Assembly: GCF_013358405.1 (NCBI RefSeq)
Contig: NZ_CP054836.1
Coordinates: forward strand, 2,108,001-2,172,000
Length of the DNA stretch: 64,000 nt
Origin: Oricola thermophila
GTDB lineage: Bacteria; Pseudomonadota; Alphaproteobacteria; Rhizobiales; Rhizobiaceae
Direction of reading: 5' to 3'
The notes under the pieces were generated by a model. The model had not been told where the DNA came from, made no database searches, and saw nothing but the letters and a program-made list of their open reading frames with translations. Positions 2,958 to 24,104 of this stretch are shown one piece after another (the first letter of the stretch is position 1; every line of letters begins with the position of its first letter). Made by a program: the position numbers and the translations under genes.

Positions 2958-6461
<3,504 letters not shown>

Positions 6462-6557
6462 CCAGTGCCCGTTGGCGCCGGTCAAAACGGCGCGACACTG
6501 TTTCCCTTGCGGCAGCAGTCCTCTATTCTCTCCTCCGGGGACGAGAGGAGGCCGGCC

Positions 6558-7769
6558 ATGCCGAAGAACATCGTCATCCTGTGCGACGGCACGTCGAACC
6601 AGATCGAGGAGCAGCGTACCAACATCCTGCGCCTCTATGGCTGCCTGAGAAAGAACGACGGGCAGATCGTCTTCTACGATCCGGGCGTCGGGACTTTCGG
6701 CGGCGAGAACGACTGGTGGCGCTATTCCCGCAAGGCCAAGGAAATCTGGGGGCTGGCGACCGGCTGGGGCCTCGACCAGAACGTCAAGCAGGCCTACCGC
6801 TTCCTGGTTGAGCATTTCGACCCCGGCCAGAAGAAGACGACGAAGCGACCGGAGATCCCGCAGGACGACATCTACATCCTCGGCTTCTCGCGCGGCGCCT
6901 ATACCGCGCGCGTGCTGGCGGGCTTCATCCACGCCTTCGGGATCATGGACAGGACGCAGCTCAACCTGCTCGACTATGCCTACCGAACCTACAAGGGAAT
7001 CAGCGATTTCGACGGACCCGACGGCGGCGATCCGAACGCCGCCTTCCGGGCATTGCGCCTGTATGAGAGGGCGCTGACGCCACACCGGCCGGACATCAAG
7101 GCGCTCGGCCTTTTCGACACGGTCGGTTCCGTCATCGAACAGGGCAAGGTGTTTCCGCAACTGCGGACCCATCCCTTCACCAGGTCGAATCCGAGCGTCG
7201 CCCATGTGCGCCACGCCGTCGCCATCGACGAGCGGCGCACCATGTTCAACCCGATCCTCTGGCCGGCCGGCGGCAATTTCACCGGACCGCCCTTCAAGAG
7301 GCGCGACCCCGTTCCGCAGGACGTCAAGGAGGTCTGGTTTTCCGGCGTGCATGGCGATGTCGGCGGCGGCTACGGAGAGGCGGAGAGCGCGCAGGCCAAG
7401 ATCCCCCTCGCCTGGATGATCCGCGAGATGGAGGAAATCGGCCTGAAGTTCTTCCAGCCGACGGTCAGGAAGATCGTGCTGGGCGAGGACCCGGACCATC
7501 CGCAATACGTGAAGCCGGGCGTCGGGCAGGAACTCCATGATTCGATGACCGCGGCCTGGTCGGCAGTGGAATTCCTGCCGCGCCGCATCCCCCCGACCTC
7601 GTTTCGCGAAAGGGGCCGCAAGGGCTGCTACTTCCCGCTCTTCGACCGCCGGCTGATCCCGCCGGGCGCGACAATCCACGAGTCGGTGCGCGAGCGCATG
7701 GAAAGGGACAGCAACTACAGGCCGGAAAACCTGCCGGTCGGAACTGCAGGAAAAACTTCCGCAAGCTGA
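6558..7769 (+). CDS. DUF2235 family alpha/beta hydrolase-like protein
   Basis: 403 residues, beginning [15 protein letters not shown], the standard opening of DUF2235. The nucleophile elbow is [10 protein letters not shown] (G-x-S-x-G), followed by [11 protein letters not shown] and the late block [13 protein letters not shown] with the likely catalytic Asp and His. DUF2235 proteins are predicted hydrolases, and some relatives are type VI secretion phospholipase effectors; nothing here (no VgrG, Hcp or immunity gene) supports such a role for this copy. The start is backed by an exceptionally strong GAGAGGAGG ribosome site 6 nt upstream. Confidence 0.85.
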
Positions 7770-19534: not shown

Positions 19535-20512
19535 ATGAGCGAGACGAAACACAGCCCGGTCCTGATCATCGGATCCGGTCCGGCCGGGTATACCGCGGCC
19601 ATCTACACGGCGCGCGCCATGCTGAAGCCGGTGCTCGTCGCCGGGATGGAACAGGGCGGCCAGCTGATGATCACGACCGAGGTCGAGAACTATCCCGGCT
19701 ATGCCGAGCCCGTGCAGGGGCCGTGGATGATGGAGCAGATGCTGGAACAGGCGAAGAATGTCGGCGCCGAAATCGTCAACGACATCATCACGGAAGTCGA
19801 CATGGACACGCGCCCGTTCAGGGCGGTCGGCGACAGCGGCACGGTCTACACCGCCGACGCGCTGATCATCGCCACGGGCGCCAAGGCCAAGTGGCTCGGC
19901 ATCGAGAGCGAGCAGAAGTACATGGGCTACGGCGTCTCCGCCTGCGCCACCTGCGACGGCTTCTTCTACCGCGACAAGGACGTGATCGTGGTCGGCGGCG
20001 GCAACTCGGCAGTCGAGGAGGCGCTGTATCTCTCGAACATCGCCAAGACCGTCACGCTGGTACACAGGCGCGACGAACTTCGCTCCGAAAAGATCCTGCA
20101 GCAGAGGCTGTTCGCGCGTGACAACGTGAAGTTCATGTGGGACACGGTGATCGACGAGATCATCGGCGCCAAGAACAATCCGGCCCTGCCCGCCTCGGTG
20201 ACCGCCGTCAGGTTGAAGAACGTCAAGACCGGCGAGACCACCGAAATGCCGATCGACGGCGTCTTCGTCGCCATCGGCCACGCTCCGGCGGTGTCGCTTT
20301 TCGAGGGCAAGCTGAAGCAGAAGCCGAACGGTTATCTGTGGACCGCGCCCGATTCGACGGCAACCGACGTGCCGGGCGTGTTCGCGGCCGGTGACGTGAC
20401 CGACGACACCTACCGCCAGGCCGTTACCGCGGCCGGCATGGGCTGCATGGCCGCGCTGGAAGCCGAGAAGTACATCGCCGCGCAGCAGGCGGAACTGCAG
20501 GCCGCCGAATAG
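19535..20512 (+). CDS. trxB: Thioredoxin-disulfide reductase
   Basis: 325 residues. TrxB passes electrons from NADPH through FAD to thioredoxin in the cytoplasm. Motifs: FAD-binding IIGSGPAGYTAAIYTARA, redox-active CATCDG (C-A-T-C), NADPH-binding VVGGGNSAVEEALYLS and C-terminal GVFAAGDVTDDTYRQAVTAAG. The start is the ATG giving MSETKHSP, with AGAGAGG upstream. A GC-rich hairpin and 56 bp separate it from lsrB, as in the Sinorhizobium order lrp-trxB-lsrB. Confidence 0.98.
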   Translation: MSETKHSPVLIIGSGPAGYTAAIYTARAMLKPVLVAGMEQGGQLMITTEVENYPGYAEPVQGPWMMEQMLEQAKNVGAEIVNDIITEVDMDTRPFRAVGDSGTVYTADALIIATGAKAKWLGIESEQKYMGYGVSACATCDGFFYRDKDVIVVGGGNSAVEEALYLSNIAKTVTLVHRRDELRSEKILQQRLFARDNVKFMWDTVIDEIIGAKNNPALPASVTAVRLKNVKTGETTEMPIDGVFVAIGHAPAVSLFEGKLKQKPNGYLWTAPDSTATDVPGVFAAGDVTDDTYRQAVTAAGMGCMAALEAEKYIAAQQAELQAAE

Positions 20513-20568: not shown

Positions 20569-21465
20569 ATGCCGCTCGACTGGGACAAATTGCGCGTATT
20601 CCACGCAGCGGCAGAAGCCGGCTCGTTCACCCACGCCGGCGAGACGCTGCACATGTCGCAATCGGCGGTCAGCCGACAGGTATCTGCGCTCGAGCACGAG
20701 GTCGGCGTTCCGCTGTTCAACCGGCACGCGCGCGGCCTGGTGCTGACCGAACAGGGCGAGTTGCTCTTCCGCACCGCCAACGAGGTGCTCGTGAAACTGG
20801 AGACGGTGCGCGCGCAGCTGTCCGAAACGACAGATAGGCCGTCCGGGCAACTGCGCGTGACCACCACGGTCGGTCTCGGCTCCGGCTGGCTGACCTACCG
20901 CGTGCAGGACTTCCTCGATCTCTATCCCGACGTGCGGCTGCACCTGATGCTGTCGAACGAGGAACTCGACCTCAACATGCGCCAGGCGGATTGCGCCATC
21001 CGGCTGCGTGCGCCGCAACAGCCCGACCTGATCCAGCGCAAGCTGTTCACGGTGCATTTCCACGTCTATGCCTCGCCAGCCTACCTGAACAAGCACGGCC
21101 GACCGGAAACTGTGGAAGAACTCGACAACCATCGGATCATCGGCTTCGGCGAACCGGCCCCCGCCTACCTGATGGAAATGCGCTCCTTCCTCACGCTCGG
21201 AAGGCCGGACGGCACGCCGCGCGATCCCGTGCTGGAGATCAATTCCATCATGTCGATCAAGCGCGCGGCACAGCGCGGAATCGGCATCGCCATGCTGCCG
21301 GACTACGCCGTGGAGCCGGATTCCGGGCTGGTGCAGCTGTTCGGCGACATCGACCTGCCCACCTTCGACACCTATTTCGTCTATCCCGAGGCCATGCGCA
21401 CCAGCGCGAAACTGCAGGCTTTCCGGGACTTCCTGATCTCCAAGTCCAGGAACTGGGCGTACTGA
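20569..21465 (+). CDS. lsrB: LysR family transcriptional regulator, LsrB ortholog
   Basis: 298 residues. The N-terminal winged helix (LRVFHAAAEAGSFTHAGETL, recognition region SQSAVSRQVSALEHEVG) is followed by a substrate-binding-type sensor domain. The position after lrp and trxB is that of lsrB in Sinorhizobium, a regulator tied to LPS genes, symbiosis and oxidative stress, whose activity was reported to depend on cysteines. This protein has a single cysteine (Cys142, in ADCAIRL), so an intramolecular disulfide switch is not possible. A GGAGGGGAAGG ribosome site precedes the ATG. The small-RNA array begins 44 bp after its stop. Confidence 0.82.
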   Translation: MPLDWDKLRVFHAAAEAGSFTHAGETLHMSQSAVSRQVSALEHEVGVPLFNRHARGLVLTEQGELLFRTANEVLVKLETVRAQLSETTDRPSGQLRVTTTVGLGSGWLTYRVQDFLDLYPDVRLHLMLSNEELDLNMRQADCAIRLRAPQQPDLIQRKLFTVHFHVYASPAYLNKHGRPETVEELDNHRIIGFGEPAPAYLMEMRSFLTLGRPDGTPRDPVLEINSIMSIKRAAQRGIGIAMLPDYAVEPDSGLVQLFGDIDLPTFDTYFVYPEAMRTSAKLQAFRDFLISKSRNWAY

Positions 21466-21535
21466 TCCCGACCCGGCACGACATTGTGCAGGCGAGCCAT
21501 GCGCCGCCTGCATATGTGCATTGCACAATGGTCAA

Positions 21536-21564
21536 TTGAATTTTTACCAGCGAGTCAGCATATT
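21536..21564 (+). promoter_or_regulatory. Promoter of sRNA copy 1 (RpoH-like)
   Basis: TTGAAT at 21536-21541 and CATATT at 21559-21564, spacing 17 nt. The TTGAA and CATAT elements resemble alphaproteobacterial heat-shock sigma (RpoH) promoters; a sigma-70 reading is also possible. Confidence 0.65.
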
Positions 21565-21570
21565 CGGGTG

Positions 21571-21698
21571 GTCAAGAACGAGCCGTATTCTCCTCCCACG
21601 GCAGTTCGAGATTTCGAATGTGAAGGCTATCCTCCTCCCAGCCTTCCCATGACAGAGACCGGGTCGCTATCCTCCTCCCAGCGCCCCGGTCTTTTTTT
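21571..21698 (+). ncRNA. CcsR/cuckoo-type small RNA, copy 1
   Basis: The predicted start is about 7 nt after the -10 element and the end is in the U tract, giving about 128 nt. Hairpin 1 (21576-21607) pairs GAAC and GCCGT with ACGGC and GTTC around TCTCCTCCC; this is the only one of the 12 loops in the array that departs from CCTCCTCCC. Hairpin 2 (21622-21646) pairs GAAGGCT with AGCCTTC. Hairpin 3 (21656-21692) is the terminator stem. Such loops, identical to the anti-Shine-Dalgarno core, define the CcsR/cuckoo RNAs of alphaproteobacteria, which pair with purine-rich ribosome sites. Boundaries are inferred. Confidence 0.82.
21656..21698 (+). terminator. Intrinsic terminator of sRNA copy 1
   Basis: AGACCGGG/CCCGGTCT with an inner CGCT/AGCG stem, loop containing CCTCCTCCC, followed by seven T. 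Confidence 0.88.
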
Positions 21699-21791
21699 GT
21701 GCGGATTCCTGGCCACTTCGATTCTTGCCCGGCGCAACAACATGCACACCGGCCATGCACTTTCTGCATATGTGCATTGCACAATAGCCAA

Positions 21792-21820
21792 TTGAACTTT
21801 TACCAGCGAGTCAGCATATT
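21792..21820 (+). promoter_or_regulatory. Promoter of sRNA copy 2 (RpoH-like)
   Basis: TTGAAC at 21792-21797 and CATATT at 21815-21820, spacing 17 nt, with the same spacer sequence as copy 1. Confidence 0.65.
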
Positions 21821-21826
21821 CGAGTG

Positions 21827-21954
21827 GTCAAGAACGAGCCGTATCCTCCTCCCACGGCAGTTCGAGATTTCGAATGTGAAGGCTATCCTCCTCCCAGCCT
21901 TCCCATGACAGAGACCGGGTCGCTATCCTCCTCCCAGCGCCCCGGTCTTTTTTT
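21827..21954 (+). ncRNA. CcsR/cuckoo-type small RNA, copy 2
   Basis: Same three-hairpin layout as copy 1, with all three loops reading CCTCCTCCC. It differs from copy 1 near the predicted 5' end (CGAGTGG against CGGGTGG) and in hairpin 1, where it has the consensus loop. About 128 nt, with its own promoter and terminator, so it should be transcribed independently. Confidence 0.82.
21912..21954 (+). terminator. Intrinsic terminator of sRNA copy 2
   Basis: Same stem as copy 1 (AGACCGGG/CCCGGTCT plus CGCT/AGCG), followed by seven T. Confidence 0.88.
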
Positions 21955-22047
21955 GTGCGGATTCCTGGCCACCTCGATTCTTGCCCGGCGCGACAACACG
22001 CACACCGGCCATGCACTTTCTGCATATGTGCATTGCACAATGGCCAA

Positions 22048-22076
22048 TTGAACTTTTGCCAGCGAGTCACCATATT
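22048..22076 (+). promoter_or_regulatory. Promoter of sRNA copy 3 (RpoH-like)
   Basis: TTGAAC at 22048-22053 and CATATT at 22071-22076, spacing 17 nt. The base before CATATT is C instead of G. Confidence 0.65.
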
Positions 22077-22082
22077 CGGGTG

Positions 22083-22210
22083 GTCAAGAACGAGCCGTAT
22101 CCTCCTCCCACGGCAGTTCGAGATTTCGAATGCGAAGGCTATCCTCCTCCCAGCCTTCCCATGACAGAGACCGGGCCGCTATCCTCCTCCCAGCGCGCCC
22201 GGTCTTTTTT
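22083..22210 (+). ncRNA. CcsR/cuckoo-type small RNA, copy 3
   Basis: Three CCTCCTCCC hairpins as in copy 2. In the terminator stem the unpaired T of the other copies (GGGTCGCT) is a C (GGGCCGCT), and a G is present on the 3' arm (AGCGCGCCC), so one further C-G pair can form. This paired change supports the drawn structure. The U tract is six instead of seven. The transcript would again be about 128 nt. Confidence 0.82.
22168..22210 (+). terminator. Intrinsic terminator of sRNA copy 3
   Basis: AGACCGGGC/GCCCGGTCT with inner CGCT/AGCG stem and six T. Confidence 0.88.
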
Positions 22211-22305
22211 GTGCGAATTCCTTACGCGCGCCAGTTTCTCATTTCCTGCGACAATTTGCACGGGAGCTATGCGTTTTTTGCATATGTGCATTGCACAATG
22301 GTCAA

Positions 22306-22334
22306 TTGAATTCCTGCCGACCAATCAGCATATT
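22306..22334 (+). promoter_or_regulatory. Promoter of sRNA copy 4 (RpoH-like)
   Basis: TTGAAT at 22306-22311 and CATATT at 22329-22334. The 17-nt spacer has changed sequence from copies 1-3 but kept its length. Confidence 0.65.
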
Positions 22335-22340
22335 CGGGTG

Positions 22341-22468
22341 GTCAAGAACGAGCCGTATCCTCCTCCCACGGCAGTTCGAGATTTCGAATGCGAAGGCTAT
22401 CCTCCTCCCAGCCTTCCCATGACAGAGACCGGGTCGCTATCCTCCTCCCAGCGCCCCGGTCTTTTTTT
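22341..22468 (+). ncRNA. CcsR/cuckoo-type small RNA, copy 4
   Basis: Three CCTCCTCCC hairpins identical in layout to the other copies. The DNA upstream (22211-22275) is unlike the other spacers, so this copy has been separate for longer, yet its RNA body is nearly unchanged. The last 32 nt are antisense to the end of the convergent GMC oxidoreductase gene, which stops at 22437 inside hairpin 3. Confidence 0.82.
22426..22468 (+). terminator. Intrinsic terminator of sRNA copy 4, shared with the GMC gene end
   Basis: AGACCGGG/CCCGGTCT stem with seven T on the plus strand. The minus-strand GMC reading frame stops within this hairpin. Confidence 0.85.
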
Positions 22469-24104
22469 GTGCGGATTCCCGGCTCTGCGACTCTTCCCGA
22501 ATCATGGCCGACGCCCTCTCGGCGATCATCACGGTCGGCGCGTTGGTATTGCCGCCGATCAGAGTCGGCATGATCGAAGCATCGACGACGCGCAGTCCCT
22601 CGACTCCGCGCACGCGCAATCGGGGATCGACGACCGCTCCGTCATCCGTTCCCATCCTGCATGTCCCGACGGGGTGGTAGATCGTGTCCGCGCGGTTGCG
22701 AATGTGCTCCATCAGCTCCACGTCATCGGCAACCCCCTCCAGATAGACCTCGCGCCTCCTGTACGAATCGAGCGCCGGGGCCTGCATGATGCGCCGGGCG
22801 AGCTTTGCACCCCCGAGCAACGCCTCGGCATCCCGATCGTCCGACAGGTAGCGCGGATCGATCAGCGGCGCGGCCAACGGGTCGGGGCCGGCAAGGCGCA
22901 CCGTGCCGCGCGAATGCGGCCTGAGCGCGCAGACATGGCAGGAATAGCCGTATCCCCAGTGCAGCTTGCGAGCGTGATCGTCGACCAGGGCGGGAACGAA
23001 ATGCAGTTGCAGGTCCGGCCGCTCCAACGAGGGATCCGACCTGACAAAGGCGCCCCCTTCCGCACCGGGCGTGGCCACAAGGCCGGTCCCGTTGCGCCAC
23101 CAACGCAACATCTCGCGCAGCAGCTTAACGGCGCCGACCGGGCCAAGGCCCAGACCGTCGGTGTCGCCGGTCTTCCATGACAGGATGAAATCGAGGTGAT
23201 CCTGAAGGTTGCCGCCGACACCCGGCAGATCGTGCAGGACCTCGACGCCCGCGCGCTTCAGTTCCTCCGCCGGGCCGATGCCGGAGAGTTGCAAGAGCTG
23301 GGGCGAACCGAAGGCGCCACCGCTGACGATCACCTCGCGGCGGGCCCGGACCGTGCGCCCGGTGCCGCCTTGCCTGTATTCAAGCCCCACGGCGCGCCGC
23401 CCCTCGAACAGTATGCGCGTGGCGAGCGCCCTCGTGACCACCTTCAGGTTTGGCCGCCCCATGACCGGGTGCAGATAGGCGGCCGCCACGGAACAGCGTT
23501 CGCCCGCGCGCGCACCATCACGGAACTGGGTGACCTGGTAGAGCCCGGCACCTTCCTGTTGAGGGCCGTTGAAATCGCCATTGACCGGGATCTGCGTCTG
23601 CGCGCAGGCCTCCACGAAGGCATGTGTGATCGGGCGCGGCGTGCGCTGTTCGGAGACTTGGAGCGGGCCGGCATCACCGTGCAGCGCGTCGGCACCGCGC
23701 TCGTTGTTCTCCGATCGGATGAACCAGGGCAGCACGTCGTCCCAGCCCCAGCCGGGGCAGCCCGCGGCCGCCCAGTCGTCATAATCGCGCGGGTGGCCGC
23801 GCACATAGAGCATGGCATTGATGGCGCTGGAACCGCCGAGCGCGCGGCCGCGCGGCTGGTATCCGCGCCTGCCATTGAGGCCCGGCTGAGGCACGGTCTC
23901 GAAAGCCCAGTTGTTGATGCGGCCAAGGCCCGGCAGCATGGCGATAATGCCCATCGGCGCACGGACCAATATGCCCCTGCCCTCCCCGCCGGCCTCGAGA
24001 AGGCAGACCGTGACCTTCGGATCCTCCGACAGCCGCGCGGCCAGCACGCATCCCGCGGAGCCTCCGCCGGCGATCACGTAATCGAACTCCTCCACTTCCG
24101 CCAT
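22437..24104 (-). CDS. GMC family oxidoreductase (choline dehydrogenase-like)
   Basis: 555 residues. The flavoprotein signature is near the N-terminus ([20 protein letters not shown]), followed by the GMC motifs [18 protein letters not shown] and [18 protein letters not shown]. The C-terminus has HPVGTCRMG and [15 protein letters not shown] with the catalytic His/Asn region. It oxidises an unidentified alcohol with FAD; choline is not established because no betB, betI or transport gene is nearby. The final 15 or so residues (after SAMIREE) extend beyond the usual family end and are encoded opposite the copy-4 sRNA terminator and the bases just past it, so part of the tail comes from repeat-array sequence. 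Confidence 0.88.

Follow-up and report, generated by a model that had tools for sequence, protein, structure and literature searches.

AbcR and NfeR1 are well-studied rhizobial small RNAs (sRNAs) of nutrient uptake, both of which answer to the regulator LsrB. The ar14 RNAs, the family of NfeR1, are described as having three hairpins, each with the anti-Shine-Dalgarno (aSD) motif CCUCCUCCC (PMC10746234, PMC7143759, PMC3927594). Six copies of NfeR1 are reported in Sinorhizobium meliloti (PMC7143759), in which its three aSD motifs are stated to act redundantly in the inhibition of translation and LsrB is presented as indispensable for both NfeR1 and AbcR1 (PMC10746234, PMC8844928). AbcR1 and AbcR2 are located in the SMc01226-lsrB interval of this species (PMC8844928, PMC3712013) and are reported to bind Hfq, which NfeR1 does not (PMC8844928). 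The consensus given for VtlR/LsrB is GCAT-N3-TG-N3-T (PMC7486931), and the LsrB box is placed at -61 to -49 in the abcR1 promoter (PMC8844928) and at -72 to -57 in that of nfeR1 (PMC10746234). The CcsR RNAs, for their part, are reported to share one RpoH promoter and one transcript with ccaF1, from which RNase E releases them, and the order in which a DUF1127 gene precedes the RNA is said to be frequent for CcsR-like RNAs and to occur at the CIN1 locus (PMC10253847). Here we deal with an array of four aSD RNAs located behind the lsrB gene of Oricola thermophila, in a 64,000-nucleotide stretch of DNA (contig NZ_CP054836.1, positions 2,108,001 to 2,172,000) referred to below as the window. From sequence comparisons, it seems fairly probable that LsrB switches on four separately transcribed aSD RNAs which silence transporter mRNAs in place of AbcR. 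The RNAs themselves are of the CCUCCUCCC kind, which is a known kind; what appears to be new, as far as seen, is their position in the slot behind lsrB usually held by AbcR, the way they seem to have replaced AbcR in one clade, and the fourfold form with a box and a promoter-like stretch in each copy. Among the titles and opening lines of abstracts listed for the open-licence PMC literature, no report was found of three-loop RNAs in the AbcR slot or of AbcR-less Ahrensiaceae.

The four tandem units of 256-258 bp noted in a first-pass annotation of the window were confirmed behind lsrB, starting at positions 21508, 21764, 22020, and 22278 with spacings of 256, 256, and 258. Tandem Repeats Finder delimited the array at 21508-22483 (period 256, 3.8 copies, score 1581), the window's other five rows scoring 52-61. 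Each unit comprises in order GCATATGTGCATTGCACAA, a promoter-like stretch TTGAA(T/C)-N17-CATATT, a body some 125-128 nt long, and 6-7 T in a row; we infer the RNA ends and a length of 128 nt. Each 129-nt unit is predicted to fold into the three hairpins previously proposed, with the motif in the loops (z -4.8 to -5.6), and in none of the 4 cases was any of 200 shuffles as stable as the real unit. The prediction for 30 degrees leaves the motif unpaired in 12 of the 12 loops, 11 of which carry CCTCCTCCC and one (loop 1 of unit 1) TCTCCTCCC, again in line with the earlier reading of one motif with a single variant. Of the 16 copies of the motif CTCCTCCC on the + strand of the window, 12 lie inside the array; the - strand has 0.

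As regards the promoter and U-tract terminator attributed by the first-pass annotation to each unit, U-tracts of 6-7 are indeed present directly 3' of hairpin 3, and the terminator scan, which allows loops of up to 8 as compared with 11 here, gave 0 terminators. Since an E. coli-type promoter scan also gave 0, the array promoters rest on TTGAA-N17-CATAT, which is conserved in relatives; there is probably one promoter per copy.

In an ungapped comparison of the units, identity amounts to 94-99% among the RNA bodies and to 81-95% among the promoter parts. The fourfold copy might have arisen recently by neutral tandem duplication, or through an assembly fault, and be devoid of functional meaning, given that the bodies are nearly identical and that four congeners (G058, G061, G062, and G063) have exactly one three-loop RNA in the slot. 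We hold this to be unlikely: the promoters and spacers differ, the bodies are more alike than the promoters, unit 3 has its own form of terminator stem, and the box, the -10, and all three loops are kept in all four units. The differing promoters and spacers and the terminator stem of unit 3 show that the array is not one unit multiplied in the assembly, and an assembly artefact was rejected for a genome which consists of one contig of 3,998,539 bases.

At gathering thresholds, no match was obtained when the window was scanned against Rfam. In a permissive scan, ar14 (RF02344) matched 4 of the 4 units with 53.5-58.1 bits (E 1.4e-8 to 1.3e-9), so that the covariance model search suggested at the outset does score every unit, just under the ar14 cut-off of 58.8. 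Because this gathering score was missed, the units are called ar14-type here and not ar14 members; orthologs in the same slot pass the cut-off in Ahrensia kielensis (71.2 bits) and in a Roseitalea metagenome-assembled genome (60.9 bits). The ar14 plan of three hairpins exposing CCUCCUCCC is followed by 12 of the 12 predicted loops (one being TCTCCTCCC), and since ar14 RNAs have three such hairpins, three loops per RNA are ordinary: the idea that they are unusual, or more elaborate than the CcsR cluster, was abandoned. The ar15 model (RF02345) was absent among the matches up to E 10 in positions 21300-22700, and the AbcR core TTCCCCTCT was not found within 1.5 kb behind the window lsrB.

The initial assignment to CcsR/cuckoo-type RNAs behind lsrB holds as far as the aSD-loop kind and the lsrB ortholog (in a trxB-lsrB pair) are concerned, the nearest family being ar14/NfeR1. 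Membership of CcsR was rejected, the score of CcsR1 (RF02791) on the four units (32.2-35.4 bits) being far under the gathering score of 65.3. It is quite improbable that the locus is an ordinary stress-induced CcsR/cuckoo cluster, driven by RpoH and of the DUF1127 type, with an incidental position behind lsrB. The loop motif is the same, two DUF1127-ar14 loci resembling CIN1 occur in the same genome, and the -35 TTGAA resembles the RpoH1 -35 of S. meliloti (CTTGAA). Apart from the low CcsR1 score, however, the interval from lsrB to the array showed no DUF1127 (ccaF1) gene, open reading frames (ORFs) shorter than 80 amino acids (aa) having been read by eye only, and the slot and the box are kept in Oricola and Roseitalea and altered in Ahrensia, which is unexpected of an incidental position.

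A GCAT-N3-TG-N3-T box is present ahead of the promoter-like stretch in 4 of the 4 units; neither these LsrB/VtlR boxes nor the AbcR slot had been recognized in the first-pass annotation. In the whole window, this pattern has 8 matches on the + strand and 2 on the - strand. All 4 occurrences of its extended form in the window lie in the array, and so do all 4 occurrences of TGCATNNGTGCATTGCA in the genome when up to one mismatch is allowed. With a transcript start assumed at 21571, 7 bases past CATATT, the box spans -61 to -49. The NtrC-like pattern TGC-N11-GCA, the reported nfeR1 repressor site, coincides with the box and has 32 occurrences on each strand of the window. The window LsrB, which is likely to be the activator of the array, shows 86-91% identity to that of four congeners and 62-75% to those of other LsrB loci.

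The slot was compared in 110 lsrB loci (the best 80 of 572 from named genomes and the best 30 from further relatives, in which 289 genomes gave a match), a count which keeps doubles, some genomes having been fetched twice (e.g., L016 and L149). Within 1.5 kb behind lsrB, the AbcR core TTCCCCTCT was found in 87 loci (single in 39, double in 48), one three-loop RNA in 14, four in 1 (the window), and neither in 8; among the 110 loci, more than one three-loop RNA behind lsrB was seen only at the window locus. The 15 three-loop loci, which have 12 distinct LsrB sequences, belong to Oricola, Roseitalea, and Ahrensia relatives; one of them (L017) is labelled Phyllobacteriaceae, its LsrB being identical to that of G235, from genus g99. 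In a fifth congener (G064), lsrB was not seen and the genome has a single ar14 match. When 11 slots were scanned with Rfam, ar15 was obtained in 7 (two each in L036, L042, and L025; one each in L088, L021, L030, and L020) and ar14 in 2 (L092 and L018), with no match over the cut-off in L016 and L095, which carry by motif a three-loop RNA and an AbcR core, respectively. In the 15 slot RNAs, 43 of the 45 loops are predicted to be unpaired, the first loop of two Ahrensia-type rows is partly exposed (0.82 and 0.86), and the stems that differ in sequence keep their pairs in a hairpin-by-hairpin comparison. RNAalifold applied to a MAFFT alignment of these 15 RNAs recovered hairpins 2 and 3 and missed hairpin 1, we think because MAFFT misaligned the groups.

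Of the 15 three-loop loci, 12 have the box downstream of lsrB, as do 59 of the 87 AbcR loci and 3 of the 8 others. The distance from the box to the first aSD loop is 78 or 80 nt in all 12 boxed three-loop loci; in the AbcR loci, the distance to CTCCTCCC was measurable in 14 of 87, amounting to 77-79 nt in 13 of them and 85 nt in one, and the first loop was itself CTCCTCCCAT in the examples inspected. Because these distances agree, we favor the view that the promoter, and perhaps the first hairpin, were inherited from AbcR.

In a maximum-likelihood LsrB tree of 64 rows, which omits 10 rows with a duplicate LsrB and takes only every fourth locus between L036 and L087, the 12 three-loop rows form one clade (support 100/97; 200 of the 200 bootstrap trees) composed of the Oricola genus, the Roseitalea-type g99, and the Ahrensia-type g109. 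The next row is G091/L157 (support 95/75), the placement of which is unsure because of its long branch. Its slot RNA lacks the AbcR core; CCTCCTCCTCCC stands at the position of the first loop, CTCCCTCCC forms a second stretch, and the motif is missing from the terminator. No Rfam match over the cut-off was obtained for it, and G091 is the sole genome of its genus in the set. Judging from these motifs, L157 may be intermediate between AbcR and the three-loop RNA.

Of 13 genomes taken from these groups (G064, G091, and 11 in which the three-loop slot was seen), none gave an ar15 match over the cut-off, versus 15 of 15 comparison genomes, i.e., 15 of the 18 genomes behind L158-L177 without a three-loop slot (G227, G043, and G253 being left out). 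In the latter, the ar15 match lies no more than 230 bp from lsrB in 13 of the 15 genomes and 1.5 and 4.9 kb away in the other two. At the locus of G280 (L161:2490-2702), a cobalamin riboswitch (RF00174, 108.3 bits) stands directly behind lsrB, with ar15 4.9 kb off. The best ar15-like match of the O. thermophila genome itself (L142, 27.7 bits) was not counted as AbcR, as it has one TCCTCCC loop and reaches no Rfam cut-off. This stretch (L142:1501-1607; G000:C1:3360119-3360225), located behind an ammonium-transporter ORF (PF00909), combines TCCTCCC with a U-tract and is a candidate sRNA of the 3' untranslated region.

Two further ar14 matches over the cut-off are present in the genome of O. thermophila (83.6 and 64.9 bits; C1:945893-946020 and 946364-946489, - strand). 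Both are located directly 3' of 48-aa DUF1127 ORFs (PF06568; L009, - strand, 5894-6645), with a GCAT-N3-TG-N3-T box and the palindrome TGTGCAWTGCACA upstream, and the six best ar14-type copies of this genome may form one LsrB regulon. A match of 22.3 bits at L008/L011, which lacks CCTCCTCCC, was taken to be due to chance. At L010:3684-3860 (- strand; G000:C1:2652273-2652346), one CCTCCTCCC hairpin-like stretch with a T-tract lies between a 166-aa ORF, phasin-like by eye, and tRNA-His. In the family as a whole, three CTCCTCCC motifs at the RNA spacing were found in 325 of the 394 genomes, the reversed control being non-zero only in G005 among the rows read, and 60 of 61 genomes gave ar14 matches with E no higher than 1e-4. 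Four ar14 matches stand end to end in G027, and seven tandem three-loop units with a spacing of about 149 bp occur in G180 (C1:878340-879318), a relative of the same family, so that the idea of a tandem array of four being unprecedented was rejected.

These data bear on the question as to whether a separate ar14 gene, bringing along an LsrB-type promoter, moved behind lsrB, AbcR having been lost independently and the RNAs being functionally unlinked. This is possible, although it is not what we would expect. No recognizable ar15 core is present in hairpins 2 and 3, the two DUF1127-ar14 loci of the genome also have the box and the TGTGCAWTGCACA palindrome upstream, and nfeR1, an ar14 RNA, is itself described as LsrB-activated in S. 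meliloti. On the other hand, with the start position given above, the box of the array occupies the abcR1 position and not that of nfeR1, its distance from the first loop in the 12 three-loop loci is close to that in 13 of the 14 measurable AbcR loci, and the change occurred in one clade, as one change on the LsrB tree.

The candidate targets point in the same direction as the reading in which the RNAs silence transporter mRNAs. Sites of the form GGGAGGA-N5-12-ATG number 120 in the genome, versus 9 for the reversed pattern, and the AAGGAGA sites used as a control 112, versus 11. In a sample consisting of the first 30 listed sites of each type, 23 of the 30 GGGAGGA sites start an ORF of at least 100 aa, 12 of which encode uptake components according to Pfam, namely 4 DctP, DctM, DctQ, 2 Peripla_BP_6, an ABC ATPase, BenE, and 2 Sulf_transp (an outer-membrane efflux protein was excluded from this count); 13 of the 30 AAGGAGA sites start an ORF of this length, none of which has a transporter family. 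The enrichment in uptake functions (12/23 versus 0/13; one-sided Fisher p 0.001) agrees with a transporter regulon.

On the mechanism proposed, LsrB would bind each box and recruit RNA polymerase. As LsrB would act at each box, redox signals might switch on all four RNAs. Any CCUCCUCCC loop of each RNA would then be able to pair with GGGAGG-type ribosome sites, mainly those of solute-uptake mRNAs, the translation of which would be blocked by this pairing. That LsrB activates each copy and that each loop masks a ribosome site are suggested by analogy with NfeR1 and AbcR1 of S. meliloti. A single ancestral three-loop RNA would have taken the place and work of AbcR in the ancestor of the clade, and the fourfold copying, seen only in the window genome among the lsrB loci examined, would raise the dose.

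Several observations weigh against this interpretation. The ar14 gathering score is missed by all four units (by 0.7-5.3 bits), and the scan that yielded 0 promoters used the E. coli consensus. Three Ahrensia-type loci lack the exact box and have GCATAGCAGCATTGC in its place; no LsrB box was found upstream of the window trxB-lsrB, autoregulation having been reported in Agrobacterium tumefaciens. Sub-cut-off ar15 matches (E up to 1, best 27.7 bits) are present in 5 of 6 congeneric genomes, and an AbcR of strongly diverged sequence could escape the ar15 model. Because the rows of the clade share ancestry, the mutual exclusion of AbcR and the three-loop RNA counts as one evolutionary event. The target sample covers a quarter of the sites, may include shared operons, and has 2 control ORFs of 13 without a Pfam match. 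Expression, LsrB-binding, or target data for Ahrensiaceae were not found in the open-licence PMC literature.

A more specific scenario, tentative and rather doubtful, is that AbcR was converted in place: in the ancestor of the clade, a one-loop Hfq-binding AbcR would have become a three-loop aSD RNA behind an unbroken LsrB promoter, with G091/L157 on the neighboring branch as an intermediate, and would later have been amplified fourfold in the window species, one redox signal then giving twelve ribosome-site decoys. If true, one regulon would have exchanged one sRNA family for another while the regulator, the promoter, and the gene position were kept.

The clade makes it possible to test the interchangeability of AbcR-type and NfeR1-type RNAs behind one regulator, along with the replacement of an Hfq-binding regulator by one reported not to bind Hfq, and the effect of copy number on a regulator with redundant binding loops. 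It also holds a trap for annotation: in the Oricola, Roseitalea, and Ahrensia-type genomes tried, a search for AbcR gives nothing over the cut-off, yet the slot is filled.

The features of the locus are listed in Table 1. None of the NCBIfam models reached the cut-off on the window LsrB among the 25 matches listed, and trxB-lsrB is stated to be a constant pair in Rhizobiales (PMC11975290). A convergent GMC oxidoreductase ORF (22437-24104, - strand, PF00732/PF05199) overlaps with its 3' end, in antisense, the last 32 bases of unit 4 (22437-22468).

Table 1. Features of the trxB-lsrB locus and of the sRNA array (window positions).
Feature	Position	Strand	Evidence and remarks
trxB, thioredoxin reductase, upstream partner of lsrB	19535..20512	+	TIGR01292 398.9 bits (cut-off 343.45), PF07992; start codon inferred
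lsrB/vtlR ortholog, LysR-type regulator	20569..21465	+	PF00126, PF03466; adjoins trxB
LsrB/VtlR-type box, unit 1, GCATATGTGCATTGCACAA	21510..21528	+	fits published GCAT-N3-TG-N3-T
Inferred -35/-10, unit 1, TTGAAT-N17-CATATT	21536..21564	+	position kept in the slot of relatives
sRNA unit 1, three aSD hairpins, loop 1 TCTCCTCCC	21571..21698	+	ar14 56.0 bits, CcsR1 35.4 bits, fold z -4.81; ends inferred
LsrB/VtlR-type box, unit 2	21766..21784	+	consensus match
sRNA unit 2	21827..21954	+	ar14 58.1 bits, fold z -5.57; ends inferred
LsrB/VtlR-type box, unit 3	22022..22040	+	consensus match
sRNA unit 3, terminator stem of congener form	22083..22210	+	ar14 53.5 bits, fold z -5.61, alignment; ends inferred
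LsrB/VtlR-type box, unit 4	22280..22298	+	consensus match
sRNA unit 4	22341..22468	+	ar14 57.5 bits, fold z -4.94; ends inferred

Among the known systems, ar14/NfeR1 (the SmelA075 family) resembles the array in its length of about 120 nt, its three CCUCCUCCC hairpins with variable stems, its several copies per genome, and its reported activation by LsrB in S. meliloti (PMC10746234, PMC7143759, PMC3927594); the array differs from it in occupying the AbcR slot behind lsrB, in having the box at the abcR1 position, and in consisting of four tandem copies, each with a promoter-like stretch. With AbcR1/AbcR2 (ar15), the array shares the slot behind lsrB, the box at -61 to -49, and the aSD motif in hairpin 1, and tandem copies are common at AbcR loci (two cores in 48 of 87), whereas it has three aSD loops, no TTCCCCTCT core, and no ar15 match. 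CcsR1-4 of Rhodobacter and the cuckoo RNAs (RF02791) likewise show CCUCCUCCC loops and a cluster of four homologous RNAs; unlike them, the array has a promoter-like stretch per copy and a low CcsR1 score, with no DUF1127 gene seen. The array of G180 is similar in that it consists of tandem three-loop units, but it is far from lsrB, though on the same contig, and its spacing leaves about 30 bp between bodies of about 120 nt (a length which we infer), with little room for a promoter and a box per copy.

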